From Atopobium sp. oral taxon 416 (GTDB taxonomy: Bacteria; Actinomycetota; Coriobacteriia; Coriobacteriales; Atopobiaceae), in the NCBI RefSeq assembly GCF_018128285.1, contig NZ_CP072380.1, forward strand, positions 124,001-188,000: a stretch of 64,000 nucleotides of DNA, given 5' to 3'. Shown one piece after another: positions 10,469 to 17,352 of this stretch (position 1 is its first letter; each line of letters begins with the position of its first letter). The translations under genes and the position numbers were made by a program. The notes beneath the pieces were generated by a model that searched no databases, was not told the DNA's origin, and worked only from the letters and a program-made list of their open reading frames with translations.

Positions 10469-10541
10469 AAATTCCGCCGTTTTGTTCGTCTGTGCTTCAC
10501 CCAAGGCGCACACTTGCGCTATTCTTAAGCAGTGCGCCTGT

Positions 10542-10626
10542 GGGGGCGTGGTGAAATTGGCATACACAAGAGACTTAAAATCTCTCGCTGCAAAGCTTGT
10601 GGGTTCGAGTCCCACCGCCCCTACCA
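10542..10626 (+). tRNA. tRNA-Leu (anticodon UAA)
   Basis: An 85-nt cloverleaf with 3' CCA encoded. The anticodon stem AGAGA/TCTCT holds the 7-nt loop CTTAAAA (anticodon TAA). The long class II variable arm is present and the T-loop is GTTCGAGTC. The acceptor pairs GGGGGCG with CGCCCCT, with a G-T at the first pair. Confidence 0.95.
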
Positions 10627-10754
10627 GCTTCTATTGTGTATAGAGCGCACTTCCCAAAGCCGGAGATATTGCGAACTTTAGCCGTGAGGCCCACGTGGAG
10701 CTGTGTTCACGCTATCATTTTCTGCAAGTTGTACAGAACCTGTCCTGTCCATAA

Positions 10755-10776
10755 GTTGTCTCTTCGAGAGACCAAC
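10755..10776 (+). promoter_or_regulatory. Inverted repeat just before the GntR-transketolase gene
   Basis: GTTGTCTCT and AGAGACCAAC form a near-perfect palindrome around a 3-nt centre, directly before the ribosome site AAGGGAG and 18 bp from the ATG. It could be an operator for the encoded GntR-type domain or a 5' UTR hairpin. Auto-control is inference. Confidence 0.4.
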
Positions 10777-10794
10777 CGGTAAGGGAGTGTTCGT

Positions 10795-12510
10795 ATGGAA
10801 ACAGAAAATATCGGAATACAGTCACACACTGTACCCGCCTTTGATCAACAGACTCCATCCAGCACAGCCTCAACGACGTTGAGAGCAAGCAATGAGAGCC
10901 AATTGCTGCATGAACTGCTTGCGCATGTGCTGAAGGATCGGATCATCTCAGGGGAGTGGCCTGCTGGCAGTCGCATCATGAGTGAGCATGCCCTCCAGGA
11001 GTGCTATGGAGTCTCTCGGGGCACGGTACGCCGTGCCTTGGCGCAATTGGTGCAAGAGGGGCTTTTGGTGCAGAGAAAAGGCAAAGGGACGTTTGTGACC
11101 CGCTCTGGCGTCGCCCATCCCGCCAGCGCCCGCCCGCTTTCGTTTGCCCGTGCCCTGAAAGAGCAGGGCTATGACTTTGTGACGCGCGTGCTGACCAAAG
11201 AGGTCCTCCCGGCACCAGCAGAGGTGACCAAAACCTTAGGTTTGGCTCAGCGTACCCCCGCGCTGTTCATGCGCCGCGTGAGATATGTTCAGGACCGCCC
11301 AGTGGTGTGCCAGGAGAGCTGGGAAAATCTCAACGCGTGCCCTGACCTGTCGACGCATGACTTTGAGCACGAATCGCTGTTTGATGCGGTGGAGAGAAGC
11401 TCGGGTCATACCATCGCTGCTTCACAGATTAAAAGTACCGCTCAGAAGGCTGGGCGTGAGCATGCGGGCTACCTGGGTATTGCACCTGATGAACCGGTCC
11501 TAGTCCTCGAGCAGGTTATCAGCCTGGACAACCATGTACCGATCGAGTGGAGCCTTACCTGGCTCTGTGGCGGACAGGGCGTGTTCGGGGTGGCCTCACA
11601 GCAGGAAATCAGCCCGGTAAAGGTACCGCACGCCGCAATGCCGCAACCTGCCGCAGAAGAGGGTCTCTCAAAAGAGAAAGAACAGGAACTGCGCCTTGCA
11701 GCCCTCGATATCAGGCAAGCTGTTGTCAACACCGCCCATCGCTATCGCGACCTCGCCTTCCACTTCGGTGGAGCGTTGAGCGCCGCTGAGATCTTTGCGG
11801 CCCTCTTCTTGGATGTCATGCACACCGGCCACGACGGAACACCGTGGGAGCAGCGTGACCGCTTTGTGCTCTCTAAGGCACACGCGGCGATCGGGCTGTA
11901 TCCCGTGCTCCTCAAAGCAGGCTTTATCAGCCAGAAAGACATTGACCGCGGGCTCTTCGGAAAAGATGCGGTCCTCTTCAAGCATCCGCAGCGGGACCCG
12001 AGCCGAGGCCTTGAGACTTCTGGAGGATCTCTCGGTATGGGCTTAGGCTATGCTGCAGGATTGGCGTTGGCTCTCCGCAAGAAACAGCCAAAAGTACGGG
12101 TCTTCTGCCTGGTCGGTGATGGGGAGTGCAATGAGGGAAGCATCTGGGAGGCAGCCTCCTTTGCAGGGCACTACAAGCTTTCCAACCTCGTGTGTATCGT
12201 CGATGCAAACGGCATGCAGTTGGACGGTACGACGGCGAAGGTCTCAGATTCTGGACCGCTGGCGGCAAAGTTTGCAGCCTGCGGGTTTGAGGCTCTCGAC
12301 GTCGATGGCCAATCGGTGCAGGAGCTGCATCGGGCCCTAACGCATCCACATACGCTTCCGCTGGCGCTGATCGCCCACACCACCAAAGGTGAGGGCTTGA
12401 GCTTCAGCGAAAACAAGGTGGAATGGCATGACCACAAGCTGGACGAGGGTCTCTTCGAGCAGGCCTGCGCAGAGATAGAGCGGCAACGGGAGGCAATCGA
12501 GCATGCTTAG
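10795..12510 (+). CDS. GntR/UTRA transcription regulator fused to transketolase N-terminal subunit
   Basis: One uninterrupted 571-residue frame. Residues about 36-102 are a GntR winged helix (LKDRIISGEWPAGSR ... CYGVSRGTVRRALAQL ... KGKGTFV). Residues about 112-255 are a UTRA effector-binding domain. After a linker of about 40 residues, residues 295-570 are a full transketolase N-terminal half with KAHAAIGLYP (catalytic His363), GGSLGMGLGYAAG, and the thiamine-diphosphate motif starting GDGECNEG (441) and reaching Asn472. No start codon with a ribosome site lies at the domain junction, so it does not look like two genes. It overlaps the next gene, which encodes the matching C-terminal half, by 8 bp. 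The arrangement suggests a regulator that is also an enzyme subunit, but this is inferred. A frameshift artefact in the assembly is the main alternative. Confidence 0.87.
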   Translation: METENIGIQSHTVPAFDQQTPSSTASTTLRASNESQLLHELLAHVLKDRIISGEWPAGSRIMSEHALQECYGVSRGTVRRALAQLVQEGLLVQRKGKGTFVTRSGVAHPASARPLSFARALKEQGYDFVTRVLTKEVLPAPAEVTKTLGLAQRTPALFMRRVRYVQDRPVVCQESWENLNACPDLSTHDFEHESLFDAVERSSGHTIAASQIKSTAQKAGREHAGYLGIAPDEPVLVLEQVISLDNHVPIEWSLTWLCGGQGVFGVASQQEISPVKVPHAAMPQPAAEEGLSKEKEQELRLAALDIRQAVVNTAHRYRDLAFHFGGALSAAEIFAALFLDVMHTGHDGTPWEQRDRFVLSKAHAAIGLYPVLLKAGFISQKDIDRGLFGKDAVLFKHPQRDPSRGLETSGGSLGMGLGYAAGLALALRKKQPKVRVFCLVGDGECNEGSIWEAASFAGHYKLSNLVCIVDANGMQLDGTTAKVSDSGPLAAKFAACGFEALDVDGQSVQELHRALTHPHTLPLALIAHTTKGEGLSFSENKVEWHDHKLDEGLFEQACAEIERQREAIEHA

Positions 12511-13531
12511 TGTGGATACAAAAGAGTCGACCATGGATACTGCCCAGGCCCGGGCGCTCGACGCACTCGATGCCCGCGCCGTATTCGGCTCCACAATGGA
12601 AGAGCTGGCCAGACAGTATGAGGACCTGCGCGTCGTGGTATCCGACTATGGGAGACGCCTCGAGTTGGGTAAGCTGCAGGCACAGCATCCCGATATGGTG
12701 GTCCAATGCGGCATCGCGGAGCAGAACCAGATTGAGATCGCCTCAGCCTTAGCTAACGAGGGGTCACTGGTCTTTGCGGCTTCCTATGCCCCCTTTATCA
12801 CAGCACGGGTGCTTGACCAGATACGGGTGAATTTGGGGATGATGAAAAGCCCGGTGATCCTGGTTGGATTGGGCGGTGGCTTTAGCTCAGGGGAGTTGGG
12901 AACCTCCCATATGGGTCTTGAGGATATCGCTGATCTGAGAGCGATCCCTGGTATCTCGGTGATTGCCCCCTCTGACAACGCCCAACTTAGCCTGGTCCTG
13001 AAGGATCTGGCACGGCATCCCCGTCCCTGCTACGTGCGTATCACTACCGGGCATGATGCAATAGCCGCCTCAAGCGAGGGGACTCGGTTTGGCTTCGGCA
13101 AAGCCCGTACCCTGAAGGCATTCGATACAGGAAAGCCCCACAGTGTCGCCATCCTTGCCACCGGTACGTTAGCCGGAAGCGCGCTCCGCGCGGCACATCA
13201 GCTCACAGACCAGAGTATAAACGTCTGTGTTACGGAAGTCGCTACGATCAAACCGCTGGATACTGCAGCGATCGCCTCGCTTACTCACGGTGTACGGTTG
13301 ATCGTCACGGTTGAGGAGCACAGCATCATCGGCGGGCTGGGAGGGGCTGTCGCCGAATATCTTGCTGGCATCCCCGCAGGAGCACCGCTGCTGCGCCTCG
13401 GTGTGCCGGACACCTATCTGGAAGCGGATGTTCAGGAACATCTTCTAGAGCGCTGTGGCCTTACTGCTGATGGCATCGCACAGGCAATCAGCGCTGCTTT
13501 GGTCAAACAGAGCGCCCCTTCACTCCGATAA
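12503..13531 (+). CDS. Transketolase C-terminal subunit
   Basis: A 342-residue protein with the pyrimidine-binding domain of transketolase, including GIAEQNQIEIA with the catalytic Glu (about residue 73), followed by the transketolase C-terminal domain (VTEVATIKPLD ... VTVEEHSIIGGLG). Split transketolases work as heterotetramers with the N-terminal partner, here part of the preceding fusion gene. The ATG at 12503 overlaps the upstream stop and has GGGAGG 9 bp upstream. An ATG at 12533 is possible but has no such site. The pair transfers two-carbon units in the non-oxidative pentose phosphate pathway. Confidence 0.9.
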   Translation: MLSVDTKESTMDTAQARALDALDARAVFGSTMEELARQYEDLRVVVSDYGRRLELGKLQAQHPDMVVQCGIAEQNQIEIASALANEGSLVFAASYAPFITARVLDQIRVNLGMMKSPVILVGLGGGFSSGELGTSHMGLEDIADLRAIPGISVIAPSDNAQLSLVLKDLARHPRPCYVRITTGHDAIAASSEGTRFGFGKARTLKAFDTGKPHSVAILATGTLAGSALRAAHQLTDQSINVCVTEVATIKPLDTAAIASLTHGVRLIVTVEEHSIIGGLGGAVAEYLAGIPAGAPLLRLGVPDTYLEADVQEHLLERCGLTADGIAQAISAALVKQSAPSLR

Positions 13532-13540
13532 TCGGAAGAA

Positions 13541-13579
13541 AAATGACCCCGGCAGATCAGAGATCTACCGGGGTCATTT
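13541..13579. terminator. Rho-independent terminator, transketolase / tRNA-Glu
   Basis: A 12-bp stem AAATGACCCCGG / CCGGGGTCATTT sits 9 bp after the transketolase stop. A-rich 5' and T-rich 3' arms let it work in both directions, and the tRNA on the opposite strand ends just beyond it. Confidence 0.85.
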
Positions 13580-13590
13580 GCGTTCGAAAA

Positions 13591-13665
13591 TGGTGCCCCC
13601 AACGAGATTCGAACTCGTGTCGCCGCCTTGAAAGGGCGATGTCCTAACCGTTAGACGATGGGGAC
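13591..13665 (-). tRNA. tRNA-Glu (anticodon UUC)
   Basis: Read on the minus strand, the 75-nt cloverleaf starts GTCCCCATCGTCTAACGG and ends with encoded CCA. The anticodon loop is CTTTCAA (TTC) and the T-loop is GTTCGAATC. The acceptor stem pairs GTCCCCA with TGGGGGC. Confidence 0.95.
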
Positions 13666-14118
13666 CGCGAAACAGAGTATACCAGAGTAGTGGACACAAA
13701 CGAAGTGCGACTCAGCCGAAACTGAAGTTCCACAGACAGTTTCCCGTCTGTGGCACACGCGTATCCGGAATCTACTGTGATAGCAACAAGGGACAGTAGT
13801 TCCCACCGCACGGCAGCGCGAACGGTAGCGAAAGCCTCCGATATGTATACAGAAATGTGGTCATTTACCTGGTCTTATATATAGGTAAGATTCATATTAT
13901 AGCGGACCCTATGCCAAAGCTCTATCCCACAACCGCTCGCCCAATAACGGAATAGAGGTGCATAAATCACCTGGGGTGGGATAAATAATAGTACTGGTGA
14001 GGATCTTGTGCATAGAACGTTATGCGCCTGGTCCTCGATTAGAGAGGCGCCGATCGCAGCGAGACGTATCGGCGTAAAGCCGTTGCACATGCAGCGGGTA
14101 CGAAAGGATGGGCTGTAT
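13666..14118 (+). promoter_or_regulatory. Long intergenic region / leader before the alcohol dehydrogenase
   Basis: About 450 bp without a convincing gene. It holds an 8-bp hairpin CCACAGAC / GTCTGTGG at 13730-13753, an AT-rich stretch at 13870-13905 that could contain the promoter, and two further foldable pieces nearer the gene: AGGTG / CACCT at about 13956-13973, and GCCGAT / ATCGGC at about 14049-14074. A regulated leader is possible. I could not match it to a known riboswitch. Confidence 0.35.
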
Positions 14119-16141: not shown

Positions 16142-16880
16142 ATGAGGGACATGGGAGCGGACGGGCTGCTCGAGGCGCTCCTTGCCCAGGACGATTCCGT
16201 CTGCATGGGGATGCCCCTCGAGCAGAAGATGCAGATGGCGGTCGGTAAGGCGCATGCAGGATATGTCGCCGACAAGATCTACAACCTCGTGAAGAGGGCG
16301 AACCTCAGATATCCGCAGGCAGACGTGCGCCGCATCGACTATGCAAAGGAGCGCGGGCTCGACCGCGTGCTCTCAGGCGAGCTCGCGACCTGTGGGTTCG
16401 CCACGAGAGGCCAGGACGTCGTGCTCTTCGGGCCTGCAGGCACGGGAAAGACCTATCTCGCCTGCGCGCTTGCAAAGGAGGCGTGCGCCTGGAAGGATGC
16501 GCACGAACTACATCAGGTGCCCCGACCTTAAGGAGGCCTGGAAGAATGCGCAGGAGCGTCCGGGAGGGGTCGCGAAGGCCGTGAGGAAATACGGGGCCTT
16601 CCAGGTCCTCGTCCTCGACGAATGGCTGCTCAGCAGGCCGGACGACGGCTTTTGCCGCTTCCTGCTCGAGATCTTCGAGCTGCGCTACGACGAGAGGTCG
16701 ACGATCTTTTTGCACCCAGTACCGGCAGAAGGACTGGCATGCCCGCCTCGGCGCGGATGTGACTGCCGAGGCGGGCATGGGCCGCATCGTCCACAAGACG
16801 GCATGGGTCGACATGGGAGAGATGAACATGCGTGCTGCTGCCAGGGCTGCAGCATCTTCCGGTCCCAGATCCTGATGCAG
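16142..16880 (+). pseudogene. IS21 helper ATPase IstB, frameshifted
   Basis: IstB proteins are AAA+ ATPases that assist IS21 transposition. The first frame (16142-16531) contains the helper domain and Walker A GPAGTGKTYLACALAKEA. A shift near 16500 moves the frame to one reading RTNYIRCPDLKEAWKNAQER and Walker B VLVLDEWLL. A second shift near 16710 gives the conserved end CTQYRQKDWHARLG ... GRIVHKTAWVDMGEMNMR. With two frameshifts the gene is dead. It follows an istA remnant in the normal IS21 order. Confidence 0.85.
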
Positions 16881-16964
16881 TGAGCTGAGCCCTCATGAGG
16901 GGGCGGTGCTGCATGGCACTGCCCCCGGTGCCGATTCGCGACGCAGCCGGTGCTCAGCCGCAAT

Positions 16965-17352
16965 AATCACTGGTGCCTACACGCGCAAATGCTCGACCTT
17001 CTGAATGAGTTCGCCGTTGCAAAAGCTATGAACACACAGGACAAAGTAAAGGCGGTATACAGAAAGTTTGACCTACTGATCAATGATGAATGGCTGCTAA
17101 GGCTGCTTCCGGAGGCTAAGGTGTATAATCTCCTTGAAATCATCGAGGCCTGCAGCCGCAAAGGGGCTATGATTCTTTGCACCCACTACGACACAGATGA
17201 CTGATACCTCAGGATTGACTGTGACCGTGGAGAAGATGAAGACTGCGCTGTTGCTGAAGCCATCCTTGACCGGATTATTCACAACAAGTATTCGATCGAT
17301 GTTCAAGGCAGAGTATCCATGCGCAAACGCCATGCCTTCTCAGAGTCATAAT
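16965..17352 (+). pseudogene. Second IstB-like remnant with an in-frame stop
   Basis: A different istB copy, lacking the N-terminal part and Walker A. It keeps Walker B (LLINDEWLLRLLPEAKVYNL), then CTHYDTDD. A TGA at about 17202, where W is expected, is followed in the same frame by YLRIDCDRGEDEDCAVAEA and a C-terminal MRKRHAFSES. Base composition is less GC-rich than in the copy just upstream, suggesting a separate origin. Confidence 0.7.

Follow-up and report, generated by a model that had tools for sequence, protein, structure and literature searches.

We report that a single open reading frame in a 64,000-nucleotide stretch of the chromosome of Atopobium sp. oral taxon 416 (the window) encodes a GntR winged helix, a UTRA effector domain and the N-terminal half of a transketolase, and that the C-terminal half is encoded by the next gene. 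From sequence comparison, we propose that the fused protein probably has two roles, as a GntR/HutC-type autogenous repressor acting on its own two-gene operon and as the N subunit of a split transketolase. There are precedents for GntR-UTRA regulators, for split transketolases and for enzyme-regulator fusions, and it is their combination here that is a new variant. We know of no characterised GntR-UTRA-transketolase protein; in the open-licence literature, judged by titles and abstract openings, no description of one was found, and that literature likewise yielded no paper on split transketolase. The locus is organised as follows.

10542..10626, plus strand: tRNA-Leu, the upstream flank in 24 of the 25 fusion loci (the contig of the remaining one is short)
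10795..12510, plus strand: fused gene gntR-UTRA::tktN, defined by the 571-aa frame, Pfam and homologues in the family
10921..11097, plus strand: GntR winged-helix domain, residues 43-101
11161..11562, plus strand: UTRA effector domain, residues 123-256
11569..11682, plus strand: weakly conserved linker, residues 259-296
11683..12447, plus strand: transketolase N-terminal half, residues 297-551
12488..12493, plus strand: ribosome-binding site GGGAGG of tktC, read from the sequence within the 3' end of the fused gene
12503..13531, plus strand: tktC, transketolase C-terminal half, 342 aa, overlapping the fused gene by 8 bp
13541..13579, no strand assigned: 18-nt inverted repeat from the repeat search, a likely operon terminator
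13591..13665, minus strand: tRNA-Glu, flanking the locus

The frame runs without a stop from 10795 to 12510 on the plus strand, its start codon preceded by AAGGGAG at 10781-10787, and Pfam places in it GntR (residues 43-101, 1.6e-16), UTRA (123-256, 2.4e-30) and Transketolase_N (322-551, 8.3e-30), with PF00392 at 60.1 bits against a curated cut-off of 27 and PF07702 at 105.6 against 23.8. The product of tktC carries Transket_pyr (6.5e-25) and Transketolase_C (7.6e-21), and the two adjacent genes thereby show the split-transketolase architecture, a PF00456 half beside a PF02779/PF02780 half. This bears out the preliminary description, which had read three domains in one 571-residue frame and a C-terminal half encoded next with an 8-bp overlap (12503-12510). 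In place of the C-terminal fold-type-I aminotransferase domain that marks MocR regulators, Pfam finds UTRA and Transketolase_N; among the best 25 of 41 NCBIfam matches to the fused protein, the top names are transketolases and HutC-like regulators, all below their curated cut-offs. A match to tktC lies downstream of the fused gene in all 25 carriers, with a start codon 8 bp upstream of the fused-gene end in 18 of them. The inverted repeat at 13541-13579 is strong and may terminate transcription from both sides, with tktC before it and tRNA-Glu after it. Further along the window (16142-17204), pieces resembling an IstB-type ATPase are spread over several frames and may belong to a broken insertion element of the IS21 type, as judged by eye only.

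Of 140 genomes of the family, which is probably Atopobiaceae, 25 have a stop-free fused frame, the window genome included, and these represent 9 of 35 genera; the counts are of species and not of fusion events, and 7 of the 25 come from one genus. Full-length matches in one open frame account for 24 of these genomes, the window's own and 23 whose proteins are 50-68% identical to the window protein, and the twenty-fifth carrier (G042), which was found through its GntR part, has an open frame of 612 residues with an enzyme half that is 44% identical. Chance, a sequencing error or an overlooked stop at the domain junction is excluded as an explanation because stop-free fused frames recur in this way. 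That an assembly or sequencing artefact joined two genes could be entertained in view of the lone forms of both genes that relatives carry at the same place; it is refuted by the 25 species genomes that share the fusion, single-contig genomes among them, and we give it practically no credence. Outside the family, a search of 395 order-level genomes and of 396 sampled from the phylum yielded no fusion at E <= 1e-66, a strict cut-off that missed even G042 in the order-level search and that distant independent fusions may escape; the out-of-family matches at this level, in four genomes, cover the GntR part only. Nor was there a fusion among 75 other loci for which GntR was sought at 1e-8, with 80 of 175 matches kept. 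Of 2033 matching plasmid records, one covers 80% of the query, the Cryobacterium plasmid NZ_MN657133.1; it carries unfused tktN, tktC and gntR genes (L208) adjoining genes for RpiB, TIM, DhaKL and a class II aldolase. The fusion is probably an extra transketolase in its genomes, because these have 2 to 4 Transketolase_N matches each (E <= 1e-10, one of them taken as the fusion); the window genome has three besides it.

Both parts of the protein look maintained, to judge from residue conservation. Mean pairwise identity among the 25 fused proteins is 0.58 in the HTH, 0.57 in UTRA, 0.67 in TktN and 0.33 in the linker. On the regulator side, R75 and R79 of the HTH are invariant in all 25 fused proteins and all 22 lone regulators, and so are R161 and R163, the equivalents of NagR Arg133 and Arg135, which, as stated in an excerpt of the NagR work, bind the phosphate of the ligand (PMC4333415). 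At the position of NagR Ser165 the fused proteins have Ser or Thr and the lone ones vary, and Glu145 is mostly replaced by Gln. The earlier suggestion that the protein may sense a sugar phosphate is supported by a UTRA pocket that keeps the NagR-type phosphate-binding arginines throughout the fused set.

On the enzyme side, where we take H37, H77 and D155 of human transketolase as labels for the catalytic and ThDP residues, all but one of the 25 fused proteins retain the two catalytic histidines and the GDG motif, and the Glu366 equivalent is present in all 25 TktC partners. The exception is G042, in which the H37, H77 and GDG equivalents are gone and the partner has no SDYGRRL, with the open frame, the HTH and the box before the gene retained; its fused gene and tktC (L173) may represent a natural intermediate on the way from enzyme to regulator. 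The case of G042, whose box scores above 95% of background, speaks for a transketolase half that would serve throughout as a non-catalytic ligand-sensing or scaffold domain, as the kinase-derived domain of BzdR does, but this reading is improbable given the catalytic residues kept in the other 24 fusions and the tktC match and Glu366 equivalent found in every carrier. The motif SDYGRRL (ADYGRRL in two) is common to the fused members except G042 and to the lone members, and presumably lies near the position of the substrate-phosphate serine of canonical transketolases. If the canonical substrate-phosphate residues are, as we assume, human S345, H416 and R474, the window protein departs from them, with SDYGRRL, Gly and no second Arg at the equivalent positions; because these positions are altered, the substrate may be unusual, that is, one other than xylulose 5-phosphate.

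The weakly conserved linker might also suggest that two proteins arise in the cell, through linker proteolysis or an internal start, and that the fusion is a mere co-expression device; an internal start with a site resembling a ribosome-binding site is indeed seen in 8 of the 25 linkers. We nevertheless hold this reading improbable; the positions of those eight starts differ from carrier to carrier and none is present in the window, which makes separate products from an internal start unlikely.

Upstream of the fused gene, the elements relevant to its control are the following.

10713..10718, plus strand: possible -10 element TATCAT, directly upstream of the boxes
10727..10748, plus strand: putative operator box 1, AGTTGTACAGAACCTGTCCTGT, a TGT-n8-TGT direct repeat
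10744..10764, plus strand: putative operator box 2, CCTGTCCATAAGTTGTCTCTT, in tandem with box 1
10755..10776, plus strand: palindrome named in the preliminary description, unconserved, able to form a small RNA hairpin

In an alignment of three same-genus species, block 10727-10760 is largely conserved in an otherwise diverged gap, and five of the six bases of TATCAT are invariant; a scan of 10500-13700 returned no match to a sigma-70 promoter, and terminator-like matches in the same interval are at chance level, one of them (10694-10711) directly before the boxes. By eye, TGT-n8-TGT boxes can be recognised before fused and lone regulator genes alike. A 21-bp box matrix was trained on the 22 lone-gntR promoters alone, to keep it free of bias, with seeds from these only and 315 windows from the fusion loci as background. 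A box above 95% of background was found in 22 of the 25 promoters of fused genes, in 20 of the 22 used for training and in none of the 11 lone-tktN promoters, and at the 99% level in 13, 15 and 0, respectively; ten of the 11 lone-tktN controls come from one genus, and that of G123 is mostly N. The three fusion promoters that fall short at 95% are those of G039, G040 and G045, and no genus among the 9 is without a match. In the window promoter, the best match to this matrix overlaps box 1 on the opposite strand. When the lone-gntR matrix was seeded by the consensus, the promoter site was top of its locus in 18 of 25 cases and within the best three in 22, and the window promoter site ranked 4th in 64 kb. 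With a joint matrix from fused and lone promoters, the two best sites of the window are the tandem 10728-10748 and 10744-10764. The joint matrix places a box above 12.5 upstream of gntR in 15 of 22 lone-gntR loci, whose promoters are part of its training set, and the seven promoters without one include those of G001, G002 and G003, which lie at the very place of the fusion; a second box directly follows the lone gntR in four loci (G021, G024, G025, G111), and all 22 loci together hold five boxes elsewhere. An operator-like box goes with the regulator domain.

That the protein binds its own promoter had been proposed before, with the palindrome at 10755-10776 as its site. Autocontrol remains the most likely arrangement in view of box conservation, but the palindrome is rejected as the operator, being unconserved in two same-genus relatives; the conserved element, 10727-10764, is located for the most part farther upstream, with a partial overlap. 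The palindrome is visible by eye, and the repeat search found no inverted repeat of at least 10 nt in 10627-10800. RNA folding of 10725-10800 is somewhat better than that of shuffled sequences (z -2.0, 5 of 200 shuffles as good), and Rfam finds the two flanking tRNAs at the locus and nothing else.

Control of other operons was approached with a box pattern written from three same-genus promoters, whose single perfect match in the window's genome is here, by construction. The pattern is in no excess in that genome, with 31 matches at <=2 mismatches against 30 for the control, and the lone match at 1 mismatch falls, judged by eye, in an unrelated region (L179). Strong matches to a PTS IIC occur in 7 of 25 fusion genomes (G023, G027, G042, G045, G053, G117, G120) and a weak one in G005. 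The PTS operons of G042, G053 and G120 have no box above 11, and those of G023, G027 and G045 have weak matches of 11.1-13.4. In G117 a strong box (24.7) precedes a lone gntR that has a PTS operon of its own (L140), and cross-control of that operon by the fused protein is conceivable from the sequence.

The chromosomal place of the fusion is shared by genes that carry its parts. Neighbourhood maps were drawn with genes called by a simple longest-frame rule, which leaves their rows noisy. In them the tRNA-Leu upstream of the fusion loci is mostly preceded by mfd and ppx, and tRNA-Glu is near in most. In 11 genomes, of which ten belong to one genus, tRNA-Leu is directly followed by a lone tktN-tktC pair, and none of these 11 loci has a gntR match at 1e-15. 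The lone gntRs share 43-53% identity with the fused one. In nine genomes (G001, G002, G003, G021, G024, G025, G036, G043, G082) a lone gntR comes after ppx and tRNA-Leu, and in three further ones (G130, G134, G136) it adjoins tRNA-Glu; the remaining lone-gntR loci of the 22 sit at other places. Typically the lone gntR is followed by some or all of a triose-phosphate-isomerase-like gene, a YjbQ-like gene and a galactitol-type PTS IIC, and further by genes for a class II aldolase/epimerase-like protein, a ketose-bisphosphate aldolase and a PTS IIA, the names having been assigned on G003 and that of IIA on G087; no family match was obtained for a putative IIB and one membrane protein. None of the 22 lone-gntR loci shows a joint ancestral operon of gntR, PTS genes and this tktN-tktC pair; the tkt pair that lies 9 kb downstream in G024 is a paralogous one. 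Within genus g35, ten genomes have tktN-tktC by tRNA-Leu and others a lone gntR by tRNA-Glu (L160-L170; L143, L145, L153), as if operons had been swapped as cassettes. In G044 (L171) the same place holds a decayed copy, with a broken fused gene and a tktC that is matched only in part. The preliminary description had held that relatives with separate genes at this place would speak against the fusion. A lone gntR and a lone tktN are indeed found there, but 25 species keep the fused frame, and the lone genes bear on the origin of the fusion and do not refute it. Trees that place all fused GntRs (with the broken G044) in one clade have a p-AU of 0.0525, and those that do so for all fused TktNs one of 0.495; once G005 is left out, a branch with support 74/84 separates the fused GntRs from the rest. 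A single fusion origin is neither rejected nor proven by these trees.

We posit that a dimer of the fused protein would bind the tandem TGT-n8-TGT boxes at 10727-10764 through its winged helices and, the boxes lying just downstream of the likely -10 element, would keep the operon from being transcribed. The DNA would be released when the UTRA pocket takes up a phosphorylated sugar, probably one that this transketolase consumes or forms, and the operon would then yield more fused protein together with translationally coupled TktC. The two would assemble into an active transketolase that consumes the ligand and brings repression back. The linker of about 40 residues would allow the enzyme half to pair with TktC and the regulator part to work apart, and the fusion would hold repressor and enzyme at one to one. 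Against this autorepressor-enzyme reading stand the seven lone-gntR promoters without a box, three of them at the place of the fusion, the window site that ranks only 4th in 64 kb and the single genus that supplies ten of the eleven lone-tktN controls, and the ruined enzyme half of G042 argues that catalysis is not always kept.

It is also possible, though we regard it as rather unlikely, that the protein is a trigger enzyme in the strict sense, in which pairing with TktC, or occupancy by ThDP or substrate, alters DNA binding, and the operon would read not just the UTRA ligand but also the assembly of the enzyme; the preliminary description had likewise suggested that pairing with the C-terminal subunit could compete with DNA binding. 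In favour of it, one chain seems to have both functions intact, the fusion is kept across 9 genera, and simple co-regulation needs no fusion, as the lone gntR bears the same kind of box; the divergent linker, with 62-100 residues between the UTRA end motif and the first TktN motif, fits loosely tethered domains. We tentatively add a more specific version, a two-sensor trigger enzyme in which UTRA would read the sugar phosphate and TktN-TktC assembly the enzyme level at one operator, and of which the family would show a path from enzyme to pure regulator; this, too, we hold to be doubtful.

The proposed autorepressor and enzyme subunit can be set beside several known systems. MocR regulators such as PdxR consist of a GntR helix fused to an aminotransferase-like domain, which replaces the effector domain. 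They resemble the fused protein in joining a GntR winged helix and an enzyme fold on one chain, and differ from it in that UTRA and the enzyme half are both present here. The trigger enzyme PutA combines an enzyme and a DNA-binding repressor in one chain, its enzyme part controlling DNA binding, and the fused protein is like it in carrying an enzyme and a predicted DNA-binding repressor together. Direct-repeat operators are recorded, in an excerpt of one source, for MocR regulators and for some GntR/HutC repressors, e.g., FarR and NagQ (PMC4494728). With NagR/YvoA-type GntR/HutC repressors the fused protein shares the winged helix and a UTRA domain with a phosphate-coordinating arginine pair; in contrast to them, it adds a C-terminal enzyme half, has a TGT-n8-TGT box and carries Gln in place of NagR Glu145. 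Both halves have their best PDB matches in the two chains of the Carboxydothermus hydrogenoformans split transketolase (PDB 6yak, 6yaj; 2.4e-54 and 1.5e-42), an enzyme whose N and C halves are likewise separate chains. Its N chain, of 309 residues, has no regulator domain, and other residues stand at the substrate-phosphate positions, occupied here by SDYGRRL. BzdR joins a DNA-binding domain to a shikimate-kinase-like domain, the enzymatic activity having been lost on the way to BzdR, according to an excerpt of its description (PMC3602430). The fused protein is like BzdR in that a regulator is joined to an enzyme-derived domain and unlike it in that 24 of 25 fusions keep the catalytic residues, with G042 resembling a step along the BzdR path.

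Arguments about how regulators evolve from enzymes, or onto them, usually have only end states to go by. The locus described here displays, at one place in related species, a lone regulator, a lone enzyme, a fusion with an intact active site and a fusion with a ruined one. The fusion also offers a clean test of whether a one-to-one ratio of repressor and enzyme changes feedback, and in the gut and mouth bacteria that carry it, such a fusion may let an enzyme control its own production.
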